A DNA stretch of 64,000 nucleotides. Source: Streptomyces halstedii. Its GTDB lineage: Bacteria; Actinomycetota; Actinomycetes; Streptomycetales; Streptomycetaceae. The stretch is taken from positions 186,001 through 250,000 of the forward strand of contig JOAZ01000017.1 of the NCBI GenBank assembly GCA_000720535.1, read 5' to 3'. A program made the translations under genes and the position numbers. Position 1 is the stretch's first letter. The number at the start of each line of letters is the position of its first letter. A model generated the notes under the pieces. It had not been told where the DNA came from. It saw only the letters and a list, made by a program, of their open reading frames with translations, and searched no databases. Positions 30,936-42,628 of this stretch are shown piece by piece.

Positions 30936-32282
30936 GTGGGACGACACAGTCGTAAGGGCCTTGAGGCCACGGGGCGTGAGGCCGTCGCCGATGACGGGGG
31001 CGGGGGTGCCGCCGGGCCCGGCCGGGGCCGGCGCAGGCGGGACTCCGCGACCCCGCCGGCCGGTGAGGGCCACAGTCCGTCCCACGACGCGCCACGGGTG
31101 CGCGGCGGGCACCCGGAACAGCGTGAACCCGGCGGCGGCTGGGGCACGGGTCCGCAGCCCCGGTACGACGACGCGTGGGACCCGGGAGGCCGGAACCAGG
31201 AGGCGCGGGCCCGGCAGGCGGTCGCACGCCGGCTGACGGCCCAGCAGGCCGCGCAGCGTGCCGCCACCCGGCGCACGGCGGCGCCCGGCCCCACCGCCGA
31301 CGTCCCGCTGATACCGGGCCCGCGCAAGGAGTTCGTCGAAGCGTTCGGCACCGGCGCCTCTCCCGCGGTACCGGCTCCCCGGCCTGACAGCGCGTCCGGT
31401 ACCGCCGGGGACGCCCCCGGGCCGCCTTCCGGGCCGGACGACGGCGACGGCGCCGGCAAGGACGGCAAGGGCGGCAAGGGGCGCGCCTTCACGGGGATCG
31501 CCGCCGCGGCCGTCACCACGGTGCTCGCGGTCGTGGTGGCCGGGCAGGTGGCGCAGGACTCCGGGAGCTCCTCCCGGACCCAGGCCGCGGACGTCGACCG
31601 GGACTCGGTGGGGGACGTGTCCCGCGACGACGAGCGGTCGGCCCCGCGGTCACCGTCACAGCCGGCGGAGGCCAAGCCCCTGACGTACGCCCAGAAGATG
31701 GCCCAGCCCTATCCGCTCGCCCCCGGCCTGACGGGTTCCGGGGAGTTCGAGGCGGTCCCGGGGCTGGCGAAGGCGCCCGGCAAGGGGCACCTGTACCGGT
31801 ACCGCATCGACGTCGAGAAGGGGCTCGGTCTCGATGCCGGACTCTTCGCCGAAGCCGTGCAGAAGACGCTCAACGACGACCGGAGCTGGGCGCACAACGG
31901 CGCCATGACCTTCGAGCGCGTCTCCTCCGGCGAGCCCGATTTCGTGATCACACTCGCCAGCCCGGGTACCACCGCCCTCTGGTGCGCCAAGTCCGGCCTG
32001 GACACCACCGAGGACAACGTCTCCTGCGACTCCGCCGCCACCGCCCGTGTGATGATCAACGCCTACCGGTGGGCGCAGGGCGCCTCGACCTTCGGACCGG
32101 ACCAACTCCTGATCTACCGGCAGATGCTGATCAACCATGAGGTCGGCCACCGGCTGGGGCACAACCACGAGAGCTGCCGCACCCCCGGCGCCCTGGCCCC
32201 CGTGATGCAGCAGCAGACCAAGACGCTGGACCTCGGCGGCGTCAAGTGCCGAGCCAACCCCTGGGTCCATCCCGGGAGTTGA
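30936..32282 (+). CDS. DUF3152 membrane-anchored metalloprotease-like protein
   Basis: Protein of 448 residues. A long basic/disordered cytoplasmic N-terminus (with QEARARQAVARRLTAQQAAQRAATRR near 88) precedes a membrane segment (GIAAAAVTTVLAVVVAGQVA, about 186-205). The extracellular DUF3152 domain carries the zinc motif HEVGHRLGHNH near residue 400 and two paired cysteines (CAKSG and CDSAA). It looks like a metzincin-type protease of unknown target (Rv3207c family). GTG 30936 is 9 nt after the hydrolase stop. Confidence 0.85.
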   Translation: MGRHSRKGLEATGREAVADDGGGGAAGPGRGRRRRDSATPPAGEGHSPSHDAPRVRGGHPEQREPGGGWGTGPQPRYDDAWDPGGRNQEARARQAVARRLTAQQAAQRAATRRTAAPGPTADVPLIPGPRKEFVEAFGTGASPAVPAPRPDSASGTAGDAPGPPSGPDDGDGAGKDGKGGKGRAFTGIAAAAVTTVLAVVVAGQVAQDSGSSSRTQAADVDRDSVGDVSRDDERSAPRSPSQPAEAKPLTYAQKMAQPYPLAPGLTGSGEFEAVPGLAKAPGKGHLYRYRIDVEKGLGLDAGLFAEAVQKTLNDDRSWAHNGAMTFERVSSGEPDFVITLASPGTTALWCAKSGLDTTEDNVSCDSAATARVMINAYRWAQGASTFGPDQLLIYRQMLINHEVGHRLGHNHESCRTPGALAPVMQQQTKTLDLGGVKCRANPWVHPGS

Positions 32283-32510
32283 CCCGGCGGCGCGGCCCGC
32301 GATGAGCTGGCCGGAGCCTGACTCCGGGTGACCGGGACGCCCCTTGTCGCGACTGAACGCGACGGGGGCGGGAAAGTTACGCCGGTTCACCCCTTTCGGT
32401 GGTGCGACGGACAACCGTCCACCGCGCCACCGGCGTATCCGCTTACGGTCGTCCCGCTGCCGACCGCCGACCAACGGCGGCCGCTCACAAGGGAGATCGG
32501 GGGTGTACTC

Positions 32511-34295
32511 GTGCGGATCGGACTCCTCACGGACGGTGGTTATCCGTATGCGACGGGTGAGTCCAGGCTCTGGTGCGACCGCCTCGTACGGGGGCTGCCC
32601 CAGCACGAGTTCGACCTCTACGCCCTCAGCCGCTCGGCCCGGCAGGAGCGCCAGGGCTGGGTCAGGCTCCCCGAGGGGATCGGCCAGGTCCGGACGGCTT
32701 CACTGTGGGCCTCCGGCGCGGGTTTCCCCCAGGCGGGCCCCCCGCGCGGCCTCACCGGGAGGCTCGCCACCGGTCTGGGACGCGCGTACGGACGCCGTGA
32801 ACGAGGGCGCTTCACGGCGCATGTGACGGCGCTCGTCGGCGCGGTCTGCGCCGGGGCGGACGCGGGGTCGCCAGGTGGTACGGGCGCGGCGGGCCGCTTC
32901 GCCGACGGCCTCTACGGCCTCGCCGAACTGGCCCGGGAGTGCGGCGGTCTGCCCACGGCCCTGCGCTCCGAGGCGACCGTGCGCGTCCTGGAGGCGGCCT
33001 GCCGCGCTCCGGGCGCCGGGCGGACCGTCCACAGCGCCACCGTTCCCGACTACCTGGCCTTCGCGGTGGAGCTGGAGCGGGCCCTGCGGCCCCTCTCCCT
33101 CGACTGGTACGACGAGGACAGCCTCGGCGCGGTGGACCTCTGCCACGCGGCCGCCGGGGGCGCCGCGGCCCTGCCCGGGCTGCTGGCCAAACGCTTCTTC
33201 GGGGTACCGCTTCTGGTGACGGAGCACCAGGTTCCGCTGCGCACACACTATCTGGCGGCGCCCGAGGCCTCCTTCCGCGCGCCGGTGCGCGCCCTGCTCG
33301 CCCACTTCCACGGCCTGCTGGCCTTCGAGGTGTACCGGCAGGCCTCCGTCGTCACGCCCGGCAACACCCATGTCCGCCGCTGGCAGGAGCGCTGCGGGGC
33401 CGACCCCGCCACCGTGCGGAGGGTCTACCCGGGGATGGACGCCGAGCGCTTCCGGGCCGTGGGGGAGGGGGACGACCGCGGTGGACCCGCGACACTGGTC
33501 TGGATCGGGCGGATGGAACCCGCCAAGGACCTGCTCGCCCTGCTGCACGCCTTCGCCGAGGTGCGCCGTGCCGAACCCGGCACCCGGCTGCGTGTCTTCG
33601 GCGCCCCGGTGGAGGGGGACGAGGGCGGCGGCTACCGGGCCCGGTGCGAGGCGCTCGCCGCCCAGCTCTTCCCGGACGAGGCCACGGACGCGCACGCCGT
33701 CGGTGACAGCCCGGTCACCTTCGAGGAGATCGGCGGGCCGGAGGTGCCCGACCTCGCGGAGGCCTACGCGGCGGGCGGGGTCGTCGTCCTGTCCAGCGTG
33801 GTCGAGGGCTTCCCGATCAGCCTGGTCGAGGCCATGTTCTGCGGACGGGCCACGGTCTCGACGGACGTGGGCGCCGTGGTGGAGGTCGTCGGCGGTACGG
33901 GGCTGGTGGTGCCCCCGCGCAATCCCCGGGCGCTCGCCGACGCCTGTATCGCGCTGCTGCGCGACCCCGAGCGCCGTGCGCGGCTCGGTGCGGCGGCGCG
34001 CGCGCGGGCGCTCGAACTCTTCACCGTCGAACAGAACCTCGCCGCCTTCCGTGGGATCTACCTCGACCTGGTGGCGCACGTGCCCGCGCGCTGGACGGCG
34101 GAGGCGGAGCGGGCGGAGCGCACCGGCCCGCCGCGCCCCTTCGCCACGCCTCCCGAGGCCCATGTGCTGGGGCAGTTGCCGCCGGCCCCGGTCGCCTCCG
34201 GAGCGTCGGCCAGGGTGCCCAGCTGGGCCGCCTCCGGCGCGGAGGCCGAGAGCGTGTGCGCGGGCGCGCGCGGGGCGGGGAGCAGCGATGCGTGA
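32511..34295 (+). CDS. DUF3492/GT4 glycosyltransferase (PelF-like)
   Basis: Protein of 594 residues. The N-terminus, VRIGLLTDGGYPYATGESRLW, is the DUF3492 signature found in PelF, the cytosolic synthase of Pel polysaccharide; LLVTEHQVPLRTHY near 240 matches PelF TEHG..T. The C-terminal half is a GT4 GT-B domain: VWIGRMEPAKDLLALL near 330 and GGVVVLSSVVEGFPISLVEAMFCGRATVSTDVGAVVEVV near 420-460 (E-x7-E type donor site). An N-acetylhexosamine nucleotide sugar is the likely donor. GTG 32511 is chosen at the conserved N-terminus, though its RBS (GGGGGT) is weak. Its stop overlaps the next gene's start, so the four genes form an operon. Confidence 0.88.
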   Translation: MRIGLLTDGGYPYATGESRLWCDRLVRGLPQHEFDLYALSRSARQERQGWVRLPEGIGQVRTASLWASGAGFPQAGPPRGLTGRLATGLGRAYGRRERGRFTAHVTALVGAVCAGADAGSPGGTGAAGRFADGLYGLAELARECGGLPTALRSEATVRVLEAACRAPGAGRTVHSATVPDYLAFAVELERALRPLSLDWYDEDSLGAVDLCHAAAGGAAALPGLLAKRFFGVPLLVTEHQVPLRTHYLAAPEASFRAPVRALLAHFHGLLAFEVYRQASVVTPGNTHVRRWQERCGADPATVRRVYPGMDAERFRAVGEGDDRGGPATLVWIGRMEPAKDLLALLHAFAEVRRAEPGTRLRVFGAPVEGDEGGGYRARCEALAAQLFPDEATDAHAVGDSPVTFEEIGGPEVPDLAEAYAAGGVVVLSSVVEGFPISLVEAMFCGRATVSTDVGAVVEVVGGTGLVVPPRNPRALADACIALLRDPERRARLGAAARARALELFTVEQNLAAFRGIYLDLVAHVPARWTAEAERAERTGPPRPFATPPEAHVLGQLPPAPVASGASARVPSWAASGAEAESVCAGARGAGSSDA

Positions 34296-35898
34296 CCTCG
34301 GAGGATCTCCCATGGGCCGACCGACCGACACCCCCTCCTGGGGCCTCGCCCGGGACTTGGAGGCGGGTCGGGAGGCGGGGCAGGAGGCGCCCGCCGACGC
34401 CGTACGCCCGGACCGCGAGCGGGAGCGCGGCGGCGCCCGTCCCGTGGAGAGCGGCGCCCGTCCCGTGGCGGGCGGGGCCGGTGACCCCGCCGCCGGGCCG
34501 GGCGCCACCGGGCCGGTCTTCCGAGACCCGGGGGTGGACACCGGGGCGGCGGGTCCGCAGACGGGCTCCGGGACGGCGGTCCCGCAGACGGGTCCCAGGA
34601 CGGACCCCAGGACGGCGGACCCGGACACGGGCCCCGACCCGGCGGCCCCGAGGACGGGCCCCGACCCGGCGGCTCCGGACACGGGCCCCGCCCGTACCCG
34701 CACCCCCGCGAGCCGGTCCCTCGAAGGCACCGGTCCGCGCGCGGGCGGGCCGGGAAGCGGGACCGCCTCCGGAGGCGCCCGTACCGCCGTACGGGCGCCC
34801 GAGATCGCCTACCGTCCCGGGCGCGGGCCGGGGCCCCGGCGCGGACCCGCCGACCCGGTGAAGGCGCTCATGCACCGCCACCACGACCTGTGTGAAGGGG
34901 CCGTCGATCCCCTGGAGATCGCCGCCGGTCTGGAGGCCCACGGGCTGACCGACCGCGCCGCCGCCCGCTACCGGCACCGCGACGTCTTCTCGCTCGCCGA
35001 GGAGCTCTACGCCCGCGCGCCCGGCGCCGCCCCGTCCGCGCCCCCACAGCCCCCACGGCAGGACCCCGCCGACGAGGCGCGGGCCCGCTGGACGCTGCTC
35101 GCGATGCTGCCCGGGGCCGCCTGCCTCGCCACGGCCGGGGTGCTCAGGGCCACCGAGGGGGTGCTCGGCGCGGAGGCCCGGTTCGCCGTCACGGCCTTCG
35201 GCGCGCTCCTGACCGTCCTCGGCCTCCGGCTCTCCCTGCGCGGCGGCCCGCTGCGGGCGCCGGACGGCGCCGGAGGCGTCACCCTCTACGTCTGCTGGCT
35301 CCTCGGATACGCCGTGTACGGCGACGACCTGCTCGCCCAGGTGCTCAGCGGAGGCCCCGACGGCACCTGGACCGCGGCCCCCGCCGCGCTGCTCGGGCTG
35401 GCCTCGGCCGTCGCCCCCGCCGCCTGGTGCGCGCACCTGTTCGCCGTCCACGCCCACCGCAGGCTGGCCGGAAGCCACGCCCTGGCGGAGTTCGGCGTCG
35501 GCGTGCGCCCCGCGCTGTTCGGTGTCGTCGCGCTCCAGCTGTGCGCGGTGACCGCCCTGCTGTGCCTCGCCGGCCTCGGCCACGGAGGCGGACCCGTCCT
35601 GGCCCCGGCCGCCCTGGGCGCGCTGCTCTTCCTGGCCCGGCTGCTCACCGTCCACGGCTTCCCGGAGGCCGCGGCCACCGGCCTCGCCGTCGCCTGCACC
35701 GCCGAACTCGCCGCCGTCTTCCTGGTCCTGGCCGGGCGGCTGCCCGGCCTCACCCCTCTCGCCCGGCCCGTCGACGTCCTCGTCGCCACGGCGGGCACCG
35801 GCGCGGTACCCCTCCTCGCCTGCGGTGTCGCCGCCCTGGGCCTGCTGATCCACGCCTCGCTGACCCTCACCCGGGCGTCCGCCCACGCCACCGCGTAG
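34288..35898 (+). CDS. Polytopic membrane protein of the polysaccharide cluster
   Basis: Protein of 536 residues; its ATG lies inside the glycosyltransferase gene's last codons (8-nt overlap), giving translational coupling. Residues 1-185 are disordered and carry degenerate repeats (PQTG, TGPDPAAPRTGPDPAAPDTG). A short conserved block, HHDLCEGAVDPLEIAAGLEAHG near 192-213, precedes about ten membrane segments from 265 to the end (for example LLAMLPGAACLATAGVL, AALLGLASAVAPAAWCAHLF, LAVACTAELAAVFLVLAG). It could be the flippase or secretion component, a role like PelG or PelE, but no family is recognised with certainty. Confidence 0.72.
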   Translation: MRDLGGSPMGRPTDTPSWGLARDLEAGREAGQEAPADAVRPDRERERGGARPVESGARPVAGGAGDPAAGPGATGPVFRDPGVDTGAAGPQTGSGTAVPQTGPRTDPRTADPDTGPDPAAPRTGPDPAAPDTGPARTRTPASRSLEGTGPRAGGPGSGTASGGARTAVRAPEIAYRPGRGPGPRRGPADPVKALMHRHHDLCEGAVDPLEIAAGLEAHGLTDRAAARYRHRDVFSLAEELYARAPGAAPSAPPQPPRQDPADEARARWTLLAMLPGAACLATAGVLRATEGVLGAEARFAVTAFGALLTVLGLRLSLRGGPLRAPDGAGGVTLYVCWLLGYAVYGDDLLAQVLSGGPDGTWTAAPAALLGLASAVAPAAWCAHLFAVHAHRRLAGSHALAEFGVGVRPALFGVVALQLCAVTALLCLAGLGHGGGPVLAPAALGALLFLARLLTVHGFPEAAATGLAVACTAELAAVFLVLAGRLPGLTPLARPVDVLVATAGTGAVPLLACGVAALGLLIHASLTLTRASAHATA

Positions 35899-35977
35899 CC
35901 GGACCGCCCCCTCCCACGCCGCGGAGCCGACGCCGCGGACCTCCCGAATCACACCTTCCTCAAAGGAGACACCGGAC

Positions 35978-36034
35978 ATGACCCCCCAAACCCCAGCACC
36001 GGCAGCCCGCCGTCGGCAGCGAGGGGGCGCGTGA
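35978..36034 (+). CDS. Putative 18-aa coupled leader peptide
   Basis: AAAGGAG followed 9 nt later by ATG 35978 opens an 18-codon frame, MTPQTPAPAARRRQRGGA, whose TGA stop (36032-36034) shares its A with the ATG of the epimerase. The strong RBS, absent for the epimerase itself, suggests that translation of this peptide drives epimerase translation. It may instead be the N-terminal relic of a longer epimerase start. Confidence 0.45.
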   Translation: MTPQTPAPAARRRQRGGA

Positions 36035-36999
36035 TGAGGGTTCTGCTGCTCGGAGCCAACGGATTCCTCGGCCGCTTCGTCGCCGACCGCCTGCTCGCCG
36101 ATCCCGCCGTGCACCTCACCGCCCTGGGCCGCGGCGACGACGCCGACGTGCGCTTCGACCTCGCCGGCGGCAGCCCCGGAGCGCTCACCCGCTTCCTGGA
36201 CGCCGTCCACCCCGGGGTCGTCGTCAACTGCGCGGGCGCCACCCGGGGCGGGGCCCGGGAACTGACCCGGCACAACACCGTCGCCGTCGCCACCGTCTGC
36301 GAGGCCATGCGCCGCAGCGGATGCAGCGCCCGGCTCGTCCAGGTCGGCTGCGCCTCCGAGTACGGTCCCTCGCAGCCCGGATCCTCCACCGCCGAGGACG
36401 CCGTACCCCGCCCCGGCGGCCCGTACGGCGTCAGCAAGCTCGCCGCCACCGAGCTCGTCCTCGGCTCCGGGCTGGACGCCGTCGTGCTCCGGGTCTTCTC
36501 GCCCGTCGGGCCCGGCACCCCGGCCGGCTCCCCGCTCGGCAGGCTCGCCGAGACGATGCGCCGCGCCATCCAGTCCGGTGACCCCGAACTCAGGCTCAGC
36601 GGCCTCGGTGTGCAGCGCGACTTCGTGGACGTACGGGACGTGGCGCGCGCCGTGCACGCCGCCTCGCTCTCCGCCGCCCAGGGAGTCGTCAACATCGGTA
36701 CCGGCCGCGCCGTACGGCTGCGCGACGCCGCGGCCGTGCTCGCCAGGGTCGCCGGATACGGCGGCGCGCTCCACGAGCTCGACACCCCGCCCGGACGGCT
36801 CCCCATCGGGGCCCCCCGCGCCTCCGCCGAGTCCGTCGTCGAGCACCTCTCGGCCACCCCGTCGCCCTACCCGGACGGCTGCGGGGCGTGGCAGCAGGCC
36901 GACGTGCGCACCGCCCGGGACCGCCTCGGATGGCGTCCCCGGATCAACCTGGAGGAGTCCCTCGCCGACATCTGGATGGAGGCGGCGTGCCGTATCTGA
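36034..36999 (+). CDS. NAD-dependent epimerase/dehydratase
   Basis: Extended short-chain dehydrogenase/reductase of 321 residues. The Rossmann motif is LLLGANGFLGRFVA at residues 4-17; GCASEYGPS and YGVSKLAATE near 120-145 supply the catalytic Ser and Tyr-x3-Lys; RDFVDVRDVARAVHAA near 195 is the family's C-terminal landmark. It probably makes or epimerises a nucleotide sugar, for example UDP-hexosamine, for the adjacent glycosyltransferase. The gene overlaps the next gene by 13 nt. Confidence 0.88.
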   Translation: MRVLLLGANGFLGRFVADRLLADPAVHLTALGRGDDADVRFDLAGGSPGALTRFLDAVHPGVVVNCAGATRGGARELTRHNTVAVATVCEAMRRSGCSARLVQVGCASEYGPSQPGSSTAEDAVPRPGGPYGVSKLAATELVLGSGLDAVVLRVFSPVGPGTPAGSPLGRLAETMRRAIQSGDPELRLSGLGVQRDFVDVRDVARAVHAASLSAAQGVVNIGTGRAVRLRDAAAVLARVAGYGGALHELDTPPGRLPIGAPRASAESVVEHLSATPSPYPDGCGAWQQADVRTARDRLGWRPRINLEESLADIWMEAACRI

Positions 37000-37802
37000 C
37001 CAGTACCGGCGCCGACCCGCGGACCGACGGGGCCGAACGGCCCGGGGTGGGCGTCCCGGGGTACGCCCATCCGCTGCTCGCCCCCACCGAATGGGCCGAG
37101 CTCAACCGGCCCGGGACACCGCTGCACTGGGCGGTGCTCAACATCGACAACGGCCCGGGGGCCCGCCCCGACCCGCACTGCCTGGACGCCGCCGGACGCC
37201 TGCGCAACGCCCGCGAGCGCGCCCTGCGCGACCATCCGCCGCACGACACCGTGCGGGCCGCCGGGGGCAGACTGCTGGGCCACCTCGACCTGGCCTTCGG
37301 CACCCGCCCCTTCGGGAAACTGGTCGCGGACGCCCAGTCCTTCATCGACTGGTACCAGGTCGGCGGGTTCTACCTCGCCCGCTGCCCCGCCGACCGCCCC
37401 GGCCTGCCCGCCGTGCGCCGCCTCACCAGCACCCTCGCGGCCCTCCTGGAGGACCGCGAGGACGGCGGGCGGCTGGTCCTCGGCCACGGCACCCACCCCT
37501 ACCCGGGGTACGCCGAGGCCGCCGATCAACTGGTCACCTTCCGGGGGGCGTGGACCGACTACCGCTGGTCGCAGGCGGCCGAATGGACCGCCGCCTACCG
37601 GCCGAGCCGCTTCGCGCACTTCGTCCACGGGGTACCGCGCACCCATCTCGAAGAGGCCCTGCGTATCGCCCGCTGGCAGGGCGCGGGCACGATCTTCTTC
37701 ACGGACCGGAGCGGCAAGAAGGGGCAAAGCGACCCATTCGCGGCGCTGCCCAGTTACTGGGACGAATTCGTCTCGCGGATCGGACCAGGTATCTCGGAAT
37801 GA
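36987..37802 (+). CDS. Spherulation-specific family 4-like protein (Sph3/PelA hydrolase relative)
   Basis: Protein of 271 residues with the spherulin-4 pattern: GVGVPGYAHPLLAP, HWAVLNIDNGPG, LGHLDLAFGTRPFGKL, FIDWYQVGGFYLARCP, VLGHGTHPYPGY, LVTFRGAWTDY, HFVHGV and AGTIFFTD. Family members such as fungal Sph3 are endo-glycosidases of galactosaminogalactan, structurally related to the PelA hydrolase. The strand that usually ends in acidic residues (G-I/F-F-x-D-E) reads GFYLARC, so activity may be altered or lost. No signal peptide is seen. The GTG start overlaps the epimerase. Confidence 0.8.
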   Translation: MPYLTSTGADPRTDGAERPGVGVPGYAHPLLAPTEWAELNRPGTPLHWAVLNIDNGPGARPDPHCLDAAGRLRNARERALRDHPPHDTVRAAGGRLLGHLDLAFGTRPFGKLVADAQSFIDWYQVGGFYLARCPADRPGLPAVRRLTSTLAALLEDREDGGRLVLGHGTHPYPGYAEAADQLVTFRGAWTDYRWSQAAEWTAAYRPSRFAHFVHGVPRTHLEEALRIARWQGAGTIFFTDRSGKKGQSDPFAALPSYWDEFVSRIGPGISE

Positions 37803-37886: not shown

Positions 37887-39065
37887 GTGTCGCTGCCACC
37901 CTTGGTCGAGCCAGCTGCTGAGCTCACCGTCGACGAGGTCCGCAGGTACTCCCGCCACCTGATCATCCCGGACGTCGGGATGGACGGACAGAAGCGGCTG
38001 AAGAACGCGAAGGTGCTCTGTGTCGGTGCCGGCGGTCTCGGCTCGCCCGGCCTGATGTACATGGCCGCGGCCGGCGTCGGCACGCTCGGCATCGTGGAGT
38101 TCGACGAGGTCGACGAGTCCAACCTCCAGCGCCAGGTCATCCACAGCCAGGCGGACATCGGCAAGTCCAAGGCCCAGTCGGCCAAGGAGACCGTGCAGGG
38201 GATCAACCCCCTGGTGAACGTGATCCTTCACGAGGAACGGCTCGAAGCCGAGAACGTGATGGACATCTTCGCGCAGTACGACCTGATCGTGGACGGCACG
38301 GACAACTTCGCCACCCGCTATCTCGTCAACGACGCCGCGGTCCTGTTGAACAAGCCCTACATCTGGGGCTCGATCTACCGCTTCGACGGCCAGGCGTCCG
38401 TCTTCTGGTCCGAGCACGGTCCCTGCTACCGCTGCCTCTACCCGGAGCCGCCGCCCCCCGGCATGGTCCCCTCCTGCGCCGAGGGCGGCGTCCTGGGTGT
38501 GCTCTGCGCCTCCGTGGGCTCCATCCAGGTCAACGAGGCCATCAAGCTGCTCGCCGGTATCGGTGACCCGCTGGTCGGCCGTCTGATGATCTACGACGCC
38601 CTGGAGATGCAGTACCGCCAGGTGAAGGTCCGCAAGGACCCGGACTGCGCGGTCTGCGGCGAGAACCCGACCGTCACCGAGCTCATCGACTACGAGGCCT
38701 TCTGCGGCGTCGTGTCCGAGGAGGCCCAGGAGGCGGCGGCCGGCTCCACGATCACTCCCAAGCAGCTCAAGGAGTGGATCGACGGGGACGAGAAGATCGA
38801 GATCATCGACGTCCGCGAGCCGAACGAGTACGAGATCGTCTCCATCCCCGGCTCCCGGCTGATCCCGAAGAACGAGTTCCTGATGGGCAACGCCCTCCAG
38901 GACCTTCCGCAGGACAGGCGCATCGTCCTGAACTGCAAGACGGGTGTCCGCAGCGCCGAGGTCCTCGCCGTCCTCAAGTCCGCGGGCTTCGCCGACGCGG
39001 TGCACGTCGGCGGCGGCGTCATCGGCTGGGTCAACCAGATCGAGCCCGAGAAGCCGGTCTACTAG
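37887..39065 (+). CDS. moeZ: Adenylyltransferase/sulfurtransferase MoeZ
   Basis: Protein of 392 residues. An E1-like adenylation domain (GAGGLGSPG near 50, DGTDNFATRY near 140, the zinc pairs CYRC and CAVC) is joined to a C-terminal rhodanese domain (about 288-392) with the active-site Cys in NCKTGVRS. It adenylates the C-terminal GG of small sulphur carriers and transfers sulphur to them for molybdopterin, cysteine and other thiolated products. GTG 37887 has GAGG. Mycobacterial homologues are MoeZ/MoeB1 (Rv3206c). Its TAG stop is the first bases of a MITE-like repeat. Confidence 0.93.
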   Translation: MSLPPLVEPAAELTVDEVRRYSRHLIIPDVGMDGQKRLKNAKVLCVGAGGLGSPGLMYMAAAGVGTLGIVEFDEVDESNLQRQVIHSQADIGKSKAQSAKETVQGINPLVNVILHEERLEAENVMDIFAQYDLIVDGTDNFATRYLVNDAAVLLNKPYIWGSIYRFDGQASVFWSEHGPCYRCLYPEPPPPGMVPSCAEGGVLGVLCASVGSIQVNEAIKLLAGIGDPLVGRLMIYDALEMQYRQVKVRKDPDCAVCGENPTVTELIDYEAFCGVVSEEAQEAAAGSTITPKQLKEWIDGDEKIEIIDVREPNEYEIVSIPGSRLIPKNEFLMGNALQDLPQDRRIVLNCKTGVRSAEVLAVLKSAGFADAVHVGGGVIGWVNQIEPEKPVY

Positions 39066-39256: not shown

Positions 39257-40813
39257 TCAGGGGCAGCTCCGCCCGTCCTCGGGGACCTTCCCGTCCAGGA
39301 GGTAGGCGTCGACCAGCGACGTCACGCAGCGGCTCTCCCCGTACGCGCCGTGCCCCTCGCCCTCGTTGGTGAGCAGGACACCGACGCCCTTGCCCAGCTC
39401 GTCCGCCATCCGCCGCGCACCCTCGTACGGTGTCGCCGGGTCGCCGGTCGTGCCGACGACGAGGATCGGGGCCGCGCCCGGAGCGCTCGCCTCCGGGGTG
39501 TCGCGCTCACCCTCCACCGGCCAGCCGGCACACCATCCGGCGGTGTCCCACGCCAGGAAGGGACCGAAGACCGGGGACAGCTTCCGGAACTCCGGGAGCA
39601 GCGCCCGCGCCTCGGCCACCGTCGGCCGGGCCGTGCTGTCGGCGCACGATATCGCCCGCTGCGCGTGGCTCTGCGTGTCGTAGTGGCCCGCCTCGTCACG
39701 CCCGTTGTACGAGTCGGCCAGCGCCAGCAGCCGGTCGCCCGTGCCCTCGGTCTCGATCTCGGCGAGCGCCGCCGTCAGGGAGGGCCAGCTCCGCTTCGCG
39801 TACAGCGGGGTGACGATGCCGGTGACCGCCAGCGACTCGTTCAGCTCGCGGCCGGAGGAGGTCGGCAGGGGCTTCTCGTCGATCCGCCGCAGCAGCTCCA
39901 CCAGCCGTCGCGTCCCCGCCCCGGGGTCCTCACCGCGGTCCGTGAAGTAGTTGTCCAGCGCCCGCTGGAAGCCGATCGCCTGGTTCCGGGCGTGGCCCAC
40001 GGTGTCGGCCGTCGGGTCGACCACCGCGTCCAGGACCACCCGCCCCACCCGCTCCGGGAAGAGGTGCGCGTACGTCCCGCCCAGCTCCGTGCCGTAGGAG
40101 ACGCCGAAGTAGTGCAGCGTGTCGTCGCCGAGGGCGGAGCGCAGGAGGTCCATGTCCCGGGCGGCGTTCGCCGTGCCGACGTGGGGGAGCACCGCACCGG
40201 ACAGTCGCTCGCAGCCCGCCCCGAAGGCCGCGCCGTCGCCCATGAAGGCAGCCTCCTCCGCCGCCGTGTCGGGCGTCATGTCGATCTCGCGGTAGGCCTT
40301 CTCCTGCTCGGCGTCGTCACGGCAGCGCACCCCGGAGCTGGCCGCCACCCCGCGCGGATCGAAGCCCACCAGGTCGTACCGGGTGTTGAGGTGCTCGTAC
40401 GCGGCCGCGGCGCGCGGCAGTACGGCGACGCCGGAGCCTCCCGGGCCGCCGAAGTTGAAGAGCATCGACCCGAGCCGCCGGCTCTTCCGCGTGGCCTCCT
40501 TGCGGATCAGAGCGATGCCGATGGTGGCGCCGTCCGGCTTCGAGTGGTCCAGGGGGACCTCGACGGTGGCGCAGCGCCAGTCGGGTCCCGGCGCGCTGCC
40601 GCCCTCCGGGGCCTCGCAGCGCTTCCAGTCCGGCGTGCCGGCGGCCTGTCGCGCGGTGCCGGACGCCCCGTCGTCGGAGGGACCGGAGGCGGAGGCGGGG
40701 GACGGCGCCGCCGGCGAGGGGGCCGGGGCGTCGCAGCCGGCGAGCAGCCCCGCCGTCAGCAAGGCCGCTCCGGCCGGGACCAGGGCCCGCAGGAGCCGTC
40801 CGTGTACCCGCAT
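39257..40813 (-). CDS. Secreted S33-family peptidase lipoprotein
   Basis: Protein of 518 residues. A signal peptide with lipobox LLAGC (Cys27) predicts lipid anchoring. The mature alpha/beta-hydrolase matches the Streptomyces tripeptidyl-aminopeptidase/S33 family: FNFGGPGGSG near 123 (oxyanion), YDLVGFDPRGV, GVSYGTELGG (Ser near 239), GTTGDPATPY (Asp region) and GEGHGAYG (His). It should release short peptides from proteins outside the cell. It is the paralogue of the next gene upstream on the same strand (40931-42523). Confidence 0.9.
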   Translation of the reverse strand: MRVHGRLLRALVPAGAALLTAGLLAGCDAPAPSPAAPSPASASGPSDDGASGTARQAAGTPDWKRCEAPEGGSAPGPDWRCATVEVPLDHSKPDGATIGIALIRKEATRKSRRLGSMLFNFGGPGGSGVAVLPRAAAAYEHLNTRYDLVGFDPRGVAASSGVRCRDDAEQEKAYREIDMTPDTAAEEAAFMGDGAAFGAGCERLSGAVLPHVGTANAARDMDLLRSALGDDTLHYFGVSYGTELGGTYAHLFPERVGRVVLDAVVDPTADTVGHARNQAIGFQRALDNYFTDRGEDPGAGTRRLVELLRRIDEKPLPTSSGRELNESLAVTGIVTPLYAKRSWPSLTAALAEIETEGTGDRLLALADSYNGRDEAGHYDTQSHAQRAISCADSTARPTVAEARALLPEFRKLSPVFGPFLAWDTAGWCAGWPVEGERDTPEASAPGAAPILVVGTTGDPATPYEGARRMADELGKGVGVLLTNEGEGHGAYGESRCVTSLVDAYLLDGKVPEDGRSCP

Positions 40814-40930
40814 GTGCGTTCCCTCCCCCGAGGCGCGAGGCCGACCGGCCGCCGGCGCCTACCGGTCGGCGCTCACCGGCCGGTGTGCGGCCATGCTAAT
40901 CGGCACCACCGACAGCGAGCCCCGGGACGG

Positions 40931-42523
40931 TCACGCGCAGACCGTCCCGGAGGCCGGGACCTTCCCGTCCAGCAGATAGCCGTCCACGGCCTTCTGCACA
41001 CAGGTGCTGCCGCCGTTGTAGGCGCCGTGCCCCTCGCCCTTGTAGGTGAGCTCGACGCCGACCCCCTTGCCCAGTTCGTCGGCCATCGCCTTCGCGCCCG
41101 CGTACGGGGTGGCCGGGTCACCGGTGTTCCCGATGACCAGGACGGGCGCCGCCCCCGGGGCGCTGACGTCGGGGGTGTCCCAGGCGCCCGCGACGGGCCA
41201 GCCCGTGCACGACATCAGGCCCCAGCCCAGGTAGTCGCCGAAGACGGGGGAGGCCTTCCGGAACAGCGGAAGCGCCGCCTTCGTCTGCTCCAGGGTGAAC
41301 CGCTGCTTGGAGTCCGCGCAGTTGATGGCCGTGTTGGCGGCGCCGGAGTTGTCGTAGTGGCCGTTCTGGGTGCGGCCGTTCAGCGAGTCCGCGAGCGCGA
41401 GGAGCAGCCCGCCGTTCTGCCCGTCGGCCTCGTCGAGGCCCTGTTCGAGCAGGGGCCAGGTCTCCTTGGAGTACAGGGCCGAGGCGATGCCCGTGGTGGC
41501 CTGGGTCTGCGTCAGTTCCCGCTCACCGAGCCCTGGGACGGGCTTCTTCTCCAGCTTCTCCAGGAGGTCGGCGATCCAGTCCTGGACCTCCTGGGCGCGC
41601 GACCCCGGAAGCTTGCAGTCCTCCCGCTCCGCGCAGTCGGCGGTGAAGTTGTCCAGGGCGAGCTGGAAGCCCTTGGCCTGGCCGAGCGCGGACTTCTCGG
41701 CGTCCTCGGTGGGGTCGACGACCGCGTCCAGGACGGCCCGGCCGACCTTCTTCGGGAACAGGTGCGCGTAGACCCCGCCCAGCTCGGTCCCGTAGGAGAT
41801 GCCGAAGTAGTGCAGCTTGTCGTCACCGAGGACGGAGCGCAGGAGGTCCATGTCCCGGGCGGCGTTCGTCGTGCCGACGTAGGGCAGCTCCTCCCCGGAG
41901 TTCTCCTCGCAGTCCGCGATGTACGACTTCAGGTCGTCGACGAAGGCTTTCTCCTCCTTGGCGTTGTCCGGGGTGCCGTCCATCTCGTACCGGGCGTCCA
42001 GGGCGGCGTCGTCCGCGCACTCGACGCCTTCGCTGCGGCCGACCCCGCGCGGGTCGAAGCTCACCAGGTCGTAGCGGCCGCGCAGCGTGTCGTACGCCGT
42101 CCCGAAGGCCGGCAGGGTCGCGACGCCCGAGGCGCCCGGTCCGCCGAAGTTGAAGACCAGGGAGCCGATCCGCCGGTCCTGGTCCTTGGCGCGGGCACGG
42201 ACGAGCGCCAGCTCGATGGTCCGGCCGTCCGGGTCCCCGTAGTCCAGGGGGACGTTCATGAAGGAGCACTCCCAGGGGGTGCCGCCCGGCAGCGGTGAGG
42301 GGGCGGTGCCGCTGCCCTGGGCGTTGCTCGGAGCGGGACAGCGCTTCCAGTCGAGCTTCTGCGAGGACAGGTCCCCGGGTGTCGTCGTCGGGGACGCCGT
42401 CGAGGCGGCGGAGGGCGTGCCCCGGTCCGTTCCGCCTCCGTCGTCCGAACAGGCGGCCAGGGGCAGCAGCACGGTGGCGGTGGCGGCGAGGGCGGCGGCA
42501 CGCAGGGCGGGGGTAGTCCTCAT
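40931..42523 (-). CDS. Secreted S33-family peptidase lipoprotein (paralogue)
   Basis: Protein of 530 residues with lipobox LAAC (Cys25). The same domain order as the preceding gene: FNFGGPGASG, YDLVSFDPRGVG, GISYGTELGG (nucleophile Ser), GNTGDPATPY and GEGHGAYN. Extra cysteine pairs may form disulphides. The two proteins share long runs (AARDMDLLRS, YAHLFP, VVDPT), so they arose by tandem duplication. ATG 42523 is preferred over the upstream open frame, which lacks a signal peptide. Confidence 0.9.
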   Translation of the reverse strand: MRTTPALRAAALAATATVLLPLAACSDDGGGTDRGTPSAASTASPTTTPGDLSSQKLDWKRCPAPSNAQGSGTAPSPLPGGTPWECSFMNVPLDYGDPDGRTIELALVRARAKDQDRRIGSLVFNFGGPGASGVATLPAFGTAYDTLRGRYDLVSFDPRGVGRSEGVECADDAALDARYEMDGTPDNAKEEKAFVDDLKSYIADCEENSGEELPYVGTTNAARDMDLLRSVLGDDKLHYFGISYGTELGGVYAHLFPKKVGRAVLDAVVDPTEDAEKSALGQAKGFQLALDNFTADCAEREDCKLPGSRAQEVQDWIADLLEKLEKKPVPGLGERELTQTQATTGIASALYSKETWPLLEQGLDEADGQNGGLLLALADSLNGRTQNGHYDNSGAANTAINCADSKQRFTLEQTKAALPLFRKASPVFGDYLGWGLMSCTGWPVAGAWDTPDVSAPGAAPVLVIGNTGDPATPYAGAKAMADELGKGVGVELTYKGEGHGAYNGGSTCVQKAVDGYLLDGKVPASGTVCA

Positions 42524-42603
42524 GGGCCCATCGTGGGCCGGGGCGCCCGGGGTCGCGCGGAGCCGCGGTCCATGCGGGTGGGCGCCGCCCGCCCCGGGGC
42601 CGT

Positions 42604-42628
42604 GTAGGGCCCGGGGCACGGGCCCTAC
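42604..42628 (-). terminator. Hairpin overlapping the stop of the flippase gene
   Basis: GTAGGGCCCG (42604-42613) pairs with CGGGCCCTAC (42619-42628) around a 5-nt loop. The arm contains the flippase stop codon (42625-42627). Confidence 0.55.

Follow-up and report, generated by a model that had tools for sequence, protein, structure and literature searches.

Locus and gene order

We analysed a 64,000-nucleotide stretch of the Streptomyces halstedii genome (assembly GCA_000720535.1, contig JOAZ01000017.1, positions 186,001 to 250,000; hereafter the window), in which four plus-strand genes lie between those for a DUF3152 protein and moeZ (Table 1). They encode a glycosyltransferase (GT), a membrane protein (MEM), a sugar-nucleotide enzyme (EPI) and a Spherulin-4 family protein (SPH), and together they are paralogous to the actinobacterial Agd3/GH114-type cluster for galactosamine polymers, in a reduced form that occurs genus-wide. 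An initial annotation of the sequence had read them as four overlapping genes of a reduced Pel-like polysaccharide operon inserted between these flanks. All four open reading frames (ORFs) and both flanks were found as proposed. GT overlaps MEM by 8 nucleotides (nt) and EPI overlaps SPH by 13 nt, but MEM and EPI are separated by 135 nt, so that the description as overlapping applies to the two pairs and not to the junction between them.

Table 1 Features of the locus, with positions counted from the first letter of the window.
Feature	Position	Strand	Basis
GT, DUF3492-GT4 glycosyltransferase	32511-34295	+	ORF; Pfam and NCBIfam scans
MEM, membrane protein with 8 hydrophobic segments	34288-35898	+	ORF; hydropathy
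EPI, extended short-chain dehydrogenase/reductase (SDR) sugar-nucleotide enzyme	36034-36999	+	PF01370, 128 bits (cut-off 20.9)
SPH, Spherulin-4 (GH135-fold) protein	36987-37802	+	PF12138, 60 bits (cut-off 30.2)
DUF3152 protein, left flank of insertion	30936-32282	+	PF11350, 200 bits (cut-off 25.1)
moeZ, right flank of insertion	37887-39065	+	NCBIfam MoeZ, 746 bits (cut-off 647)
Conserved upstream block ending AAGTTACG	32355-32381	+	upstream alignment
Leader: TTCACCCCTT, then 15-pair palindrome or hairpin with AACC loop	32386-32395; 32398-32431	+	

Distribution across Streptomyces

Counts from our genome searches depend on their first-pass step (one such search missed the window's own SPH), and on that footing EPI had a match at E<=1e-40 in 132/132 Streptomyces genomes, its own included, and in 0/15 other genomes of the order, with a lowest identity of 80% among the best matches. 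SPH was matched at E<=1e-10 in 115/121 Streptomyces genomes; in two of these 115 (G001 and G028) the matches reached only the scores typical of the accessory clusters described below. A class-wide sample gave SPH matches at E<=1e-8 in 31 of 296 genomes, those outside the genus being 27-36% identical and of accessory type.

Gene order was compared in two samples of loci, which may overlap in species. The first comprised 80 named loci from the closest relatives and is therefore a biased set; 72 of these ran from GT to moeZ in order, and the eight without GT begin at or before MEM or EPI, near a contig end. For the second we drew 80 of the 132 EPI loci (52 were left out) down the whole identity list, including the most divergent. 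The order GT-MEM-EPI-SPH-moeZ was kept in 69 of them; seven lacked only SPH, three were cut before GT by contig ends and one had no MEM match. The co-occurrence in related genomes that the initial annotation had anticipated thus holds, and chance falls far short of explaining how well the genes stay together in the genus. Its reading of the genes as a lineage-specific insertion was also borne out. Of 20 chosen non-Streptomyces genomes, eight had a DUF3152 match, and in six of those eight (L282, L283, L285, L287, L288 and L290) moeZ directly adjoins it without an intervening cluster; in the other two (G181 and G212) moeZ did not fall within the 1.5 kb flanks of DUF3152.

A paralogous cluster on contig C39

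On contig C39 (L143, C39:12000-29432) the S. halstedii genome carries one further DUF3492 glycosyltransferase gene and one further Spherulin-4 gene, within a cluster of eight genes that share a strand. They encode an Agd3-like deacetylase, GT2, MEM2, a LegB-like dehydratase/epimerase, a nucleotidyltransferase, EPI2, SPH2 and a GH114 protein. GT2 scored 167 bits against PelF, over the model cut-off, and the LegB-like protein 447.7 bits, just under its cut-off of 475. A seven-row profile of the deacetylase found Agd3 (6nwz) at E=1.4e-19; the single sequence reached 20.6 bits in Pfam against a cut-off of 27.6, and phmmer against the PDB gave nothing. The GH114 protein scored 288 bits and matched a solved endo-alpha-1,4-polygalactosaminidase at 4e-55. 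GH114 was found in this genome only here and at C16:4735-5388, outside both clusters. The C39 cluster, which keeps the active-site residues of its GT and SPH, is a candidate for galactosamine-polymer production.

GT, MEM, EPI and SPH have homologs in both the window operon and the C39 cluster, and their relative order agrees. Identity was 43% over 534 columns for GT and GT2, 43% over 316 for EPI and EPI2, 34% over 214 for SPH and SPH2 and 37% over 129 for MEM and MEM2 (all by blastp). The window operon differs in having no Agd3, GH114, nucleotidyltransferase or LegB-like dehydratase, in the loss of the SPH acid/base residue, in a shorter MEM, in a GT site that is eroding across orthologs, and in the presence of its EPI in every Streptomyces genome sampled. 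The kinship with galactosaminogalactan (GAG) systems that had been suggested is supported by the Agd3-like deacetylase and GH114 of this paralogous cluster. Bamford et al. 2020 (PMC7229062) report bacterial operons that combine Agd3 with a cytoplasmic GT, a membrane protein of several spans and GH114, to which some Actinobacteria add Spherulin-4. The parent kind is thus in print, but the papers found in our searches do not describe a core operon of the window type.

Phylogenies place the core genes together. Core GTs form one clade (34 rows, 100/100) that joins the Streptomyces accessory GTs at 98/98, in a tree of 50 gathered rows less two short ones that carries a long-branch warning for L238, L242 and L237, with L242 possibly falsely joined. 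Core SPH is likewise one clade (31 rows, 100/100; 45 rows gathered, two dropped; bootstrap unsettled), and core EPI forms one side of a branch in a quick tree (36 rows, SH-aLRT 99).

A second accessory form, with the order deacetylase-GT-MEM-SPH and without EPI, occurs in L232, L234, L248 and L249, with a GH114 match in L249. Matches to sugar-nucleotide genes were not seen in this form, and because it has no EPI, EPI seemingly is not required for the parent polymer. One genome (G091) holds both accessory forms and the core operon, and the deacetylase-like tblastn ranges at L232:5317-7338 and L234:4185-6176 each contain an in-frame stop, which may mark the end of the gene or damage to it. In two genomes elsewhere in the phylum (L239 and L247) a distant PelF-like GT, PelG, an Agd3-like gene and a long Spherulin-4 gene lie in one locus; read from their predicted gene content, these loci bridge Pel and GAG-type clusters.

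Protein content of the operon

Spherulin-4 protein. The placement of SPH in the spherulation-4/Sph3-like family stands on its PF12138 score, and an SPH profile matched solved Sph3 (5c5g) at E=2.5e-7. The Sph3 alignment pairs FFDE with core GFYLD/A and VVFEA with core VTFxG. The catalytic pair of Sph3 is Asp/Glu according to the available text of PMC12054363. Window SPH has Ala131 at the nucleophile position and Arg186 at the acid/base position. The acid/base Glu was present in none of the orthologs of either sample (0/100 in the first, 0/73 in the second), and the nucleophile Asp in 64/100 and 45/73, with at least six changes of state on a tree of 30 core SPH rows. Accessory SPH proteins had both residues in 29 of 31 distinct places, the other two being gaps. 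A hydrophobic N-terminus over threshold was found in none of 74 SPH proteins, window included. With the acid/base Glu missing in every ortholog compared, the initial designation of SPH as a hydrolase is not upheld, and remodelling of a polymer by SPH appears unlikely.

Sugar-nucleotide enzyme. EPI had been named a UDP-hexosamine epimerase, but it scored only 36 bits against NCBIfam galE (cut-off 262) and matched no NCBIfam model over its cut-off. Its nearest solved relative is GDP-4-keto-6-deoxymannose reductase (Rmd; PDB 2pk3, E=2e-20), from which it differs by a Cys in place of the catalytic Ser. The GxxGxxG motif, Tyr131 and Lys135 were kept in 80/80 EPI orthologs, and so was Cys106 at the position of the Ser, to which we assign the usual SDR catalytic role. 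EPI2 of the C39 cluster has Ser there, as read from its translation. The median ratio of nonsynonymous to synonymous substitution (dN/dS; Nei-Gojobori, named loci, pairs with dS 0.15-0.9) was 0.08 for EPI, 0.13 for moeZ, 0.28 for SPH, 0.33 for GT, 0.42 for DUF3152 and 0.53 for MEM, which makes EPI the slowest-evolving of the four.

Glycosyltransferase. GT contains DUF3492 (PF11997, 84 bits, cut-off 23.3) and a GT4 domain. Its best NCBIfam match was PelF at 87.4 bits, under the model cut-off of 100, and this, together with its identity to the cut-off-passing GT2, sides it with the PelF-like DUF3492 glycosyltransferases, as first assigned. Membership among trehalose, glycogen or phosphatidylinositol mannoside glycosyltransferases was rejected on the PelF match and the passing DUF3492 score.

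Window GT has all five site residues (His239, Arg334, Lys339, Glu432 and Glu440) and with them the GT4 signature of EX7E plus an Arg/Lys nucleotide site; we take Arg and Lys to be that nucleotide site and His239 to belong to the donor pocket. The Arg-Lys-Glu-Glu set (R-K-E-E) was complete in 60/77 core GT orthologs of the second sample. Three of the 17 that depart are partial or misaligned (L309, L370 and L379) and one has only Lys to Arg (L369); Arg334 and/or Lys339 were non-conservatively lost in about 13 of 74 evaluable orthologs. Position 239 was His in 12/77 and Tyr in 61/77. The first set, biased towards relatives, had ten departures among 88 rows. All five residues (H-R-K-E-E) were kept in 20/20 distinct accessory GTs, two of which are distant PelG-linked GTs. 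Pairs from nine loci of a Lys-less clade had a median GT dN/dS of 0.39 (0.23-0.67), and two smaller groups that had lost other residues had 0.50 and 0.44. These values lie below 1 but above the overall GT median, so the residue-losing GTs are somewhat relaxed.

Membrane protein. MEM has a long variable N-terminus followed by a conserved domain before the first transmembrane (TM) segment (AVDPLEIAAGLEAHG, 34900-34944). TM counts here are taken from hydropathy, and statements on fold from profiles: one hydropathy rule gave 8 hydrophobic segments in MEM, against an earlier estimate of about ten, 11 in MEM2 and 12 in PelG. MEM had no family match in Pfam or NCBIfam scans. Aligned by profile with MEM2 (hhalign; 334 columns, probability 99.6%), MEM is missing a stretch of about 100 residues in which MEM2 carries about four hydrophobic segments; as judged by these profiles, MEM is a homolog of the accessory MEM2 minus about four predicted TM segments. 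PelG (PF16933) had no match in MEM, and core and accessory MEM compared with two PelG rows by hhalign gave probabilities of 0.1-0.3%. PelG similarity was thus not found by either method, and the Pel transporter role first given to MEM is not supported. PelG was also not found in a search of this genome; the same search was positive in Thermotoga and exceeded the cut-off in 2/149 genomes.

Leader and flanking genes

A strongly conserved block sits within the 228 nt ahead of GT (32355-32505 region). The pattern AAC-N17..19-GTTA was present in 76/88 upstream regions, window included, and its spacing resembles that of an extracytoplasmic function (ECF) sigma promoter. TTCACCCCTT recurred in 85/87 loci besides the window, the two misses being poly-C stretches. 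Pairing of the palindrome held in 96.6% of cells over 55 rows (the window and 54 of 84 distinct loci). Two-sided changes were seen in 2 pairs, against 2.1 in shuffles, and in 16 cells, against 8.6, and U-G and C-A departures were about equally common. The element may be an RNA hairpin or a DNA palindrome, which these pairing and departure counts do not separate. GGGGGTG near the GT start codon could pair with CACCCC. Three candidate identities were rejected. For a known RNA family, Rfam gave nothing up to E=1; for an operator in use at other sites, the genome has no further copy of the leader at up to 3 mismatches; and for a BldD box, the consensus quoted in PMC7374567 fails by eye. Another form of the BldD box gave nothing firm.

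The DUF3152 protein carries HEVGHRLGHNHE (32136-32171), an HExxHxxGxxH-type motif that we take to be extended and zinc-protease-like. Beyond moeZ and convergent with it, two similar alpha/beta-hydrolase-like ORFs lie in tandem on the minus strand (39257-42619).

Comparison with Pel and GAG systems

The Pel operon of Pseudomonas is PelABCDEFG. That of Bacillus cereus is pelDEADAFG (PMC7112168). The window operon resembles Pel in its PelF-like DUF3492/GT4 glycosyltransferase, and differs in that its GT scores 87 bits against a PelF cut-off of 100 and that PelG and a deacetylase were not found in the operon. PelA-type deacetylase is indeed missing, as had been noted: none is encoded among the genes between DUF3152 and moeZ, and the Agd3-like gene lies in the C39 cluster. 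PelD (PF16963) had no match in this genome in a search run without a positive control, and for PelE no search was made beyond the Pfam and NCBIfam scans of the four proteins. The fungal GAG cluster (uge3, gtb3, agd3, ega3, sph3) has the Spherulin-4 family in common with the window operon, and Agd3- and Ega3-like genes occur in the accessory cluster; the window EPI is not of GalE type and the window SPH has neither the catalytic residues nor a signal sequence. We rejected a complete Pel operon, as PelG, a deacetylase and an active hydrolase were not found. The operon is Pel/GAG-derived and is not a complete Pel operon. Because it contains no deacetylase, a cationic Pel/GAG polymer would not be made by the operon alone.

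Expression of the S. coelicolor counterparts

From gene order, and without a sequence match, we take GT, MEM, EPI and SPH to correspond to SCO5174, SCO5175, SCO5176 and SCO5177 of S. coelicolor, because moeB there is SCO5178 and the gene order is constant. The moeB number is that given in the available text of PMC4340878. SCO5174 is named a transferase or putative glycosyltransferase in the accessible text of two papers. SCO5174, SCO5175 and SCO5177 appear in the available portion of PMC3610822 among the most induced genes of unknown function in the second mycelium, with log2 values of 2.2-2.6 at 24 h, 3.3-3.8 at 48 h and 3.0-3.5 at 72 h. Transposon mutants of SCO5174 made less actinorhodin, and the gene was grouped with cell-envelope genes, in the available text of PMC6585502.

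Possible function

The SPH active site is lost in every copy compared and the GT site is partly lost in some species, and the gene set has therefore probably taken on a changed job in colony development. The reading we favour, to which we would give about an even chance, is a membrane-bound module for glycosyl transfer that is induced in development and includes Spherulin-4 as a non-catalytic subunit. We infer it from the induction of the order-matched S. coelicolor genes and from the SCO5174 mutant and cell-envelope data. EPI would supply or modify a nucleotide sugar, possibly a 6-deoxy sugar, and MEM would hold GT at the membrane. GT would then pass the sugar on to a glycan or glycolipid at the surface of the differentiating hypha, and SPH may be a subunit in the cytoplasm that binds glycan without cutting it and steers the product. 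Three points weigh against such a module. The link to S. coelicolor is by gene order and not by sequence, and the putative EPI counterpart, SCO5176, is missing from the expression table of PMC3610822. An invariant Cys replaces the catalytic Ser of EPI, whose activity is only putative. The loss of GT site residues in some orthologs means that glycosyl transfer may not be a function shared by all species.

Close behind, and itself tentative, is an exapted pseudoenzyme complex in which GT and SPH serve mainly for binding. The operon would then act as a developmental regulator or scaffold that makes no polymer, using the frozen Cys-containing SDR (EPI) to sense or channel a nucleotide sugar. This would agree with the SPH acid/base residue in 0/73 orthologs, the non-conservative loss of Arg and/or Lys in about 13/74 GTs and the retention of His239 in 12/77, unlike the accessory GTs with their intact sites (20/20), and with EPI as the most constrained of the four proteins. 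Even the Lys-less GTs still have a median dN/dS of 0.39, the highest of their pairs reaching 0.67. However, R-K-E-E is kept in more GTs (60/77) than one would expect if catalysis had served no purpose from the stem onwards, and the raised dN/dS of the residue-losing groups (0.39, 0.50 and 0.44 against 0.33) also fits relaxed selection. A possible history, though a doubtful one, begins with a copy of an N-acetylgalactosamine (GalNAc)-polymer synthesis cluster arriving next to moeZ in the Streptomyces lineage. It would have become a pseudoenzyme complex, with an inactive SPH and a GT that is increasingly inactive as membrane-held, sugar-binding subunits around a frozen Cys-SDR, switched on during differentiation, possibly via the conserved structured leader.

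Decay, with EPI alone needed and GT, MEM and SPH on their way out, is improbable. It would account for the absence of SPH from 7/80 loci, for the fast evolution of MEM and GT and for a somewhat faster GT where residues are lost. Against this, GT was missing among the 80 loci only in the three contig-end cuts and MEM was unmatched in one, no group measured had a median dN/dS above about 0.66 for these genes, and three of the four genes are induced in S. coelicolor, by gene order. Less probable still is the initial proposal of a complete, working Pel/GAG-like synthase-exporter whose active hydrolase remodels an amino-sugar polymer. The DUF3492 GT, the Spherulin-4 family membership and the ancestry shared with the Agd3/GH114 cluster speak for it, and the C39 cluster could supply parts in trans; yet Agd3 and GH114 are not in the operon, SPH is without its acid/base residue, PelG similarity was not found and EPI is not GalE-like.

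Implications

Agd3/GH114-type operons are already known (PMC7229062); the reduced, genus-wide variant beside moeZ appears to be new. Labelling loci of this reduced type as Pel operons or active GH135 hydrolases is inadvisable. Since a close relative cluster with intact active-site residues is present in the same genome, the activities that were discarded and those that were kept are directly testable. Streptomyces development has long been studied, yet here are genes found across the samples of the genus, three of the four (by order) induced about eightfold or more in differentiated mycelium, to which no function is assigned in the literature found. If the conversion to a pseudoenzyme complex is correct, the operon would serve Streptomyces development by sensing sugars or guiding glycans and would not be a polymer factory.

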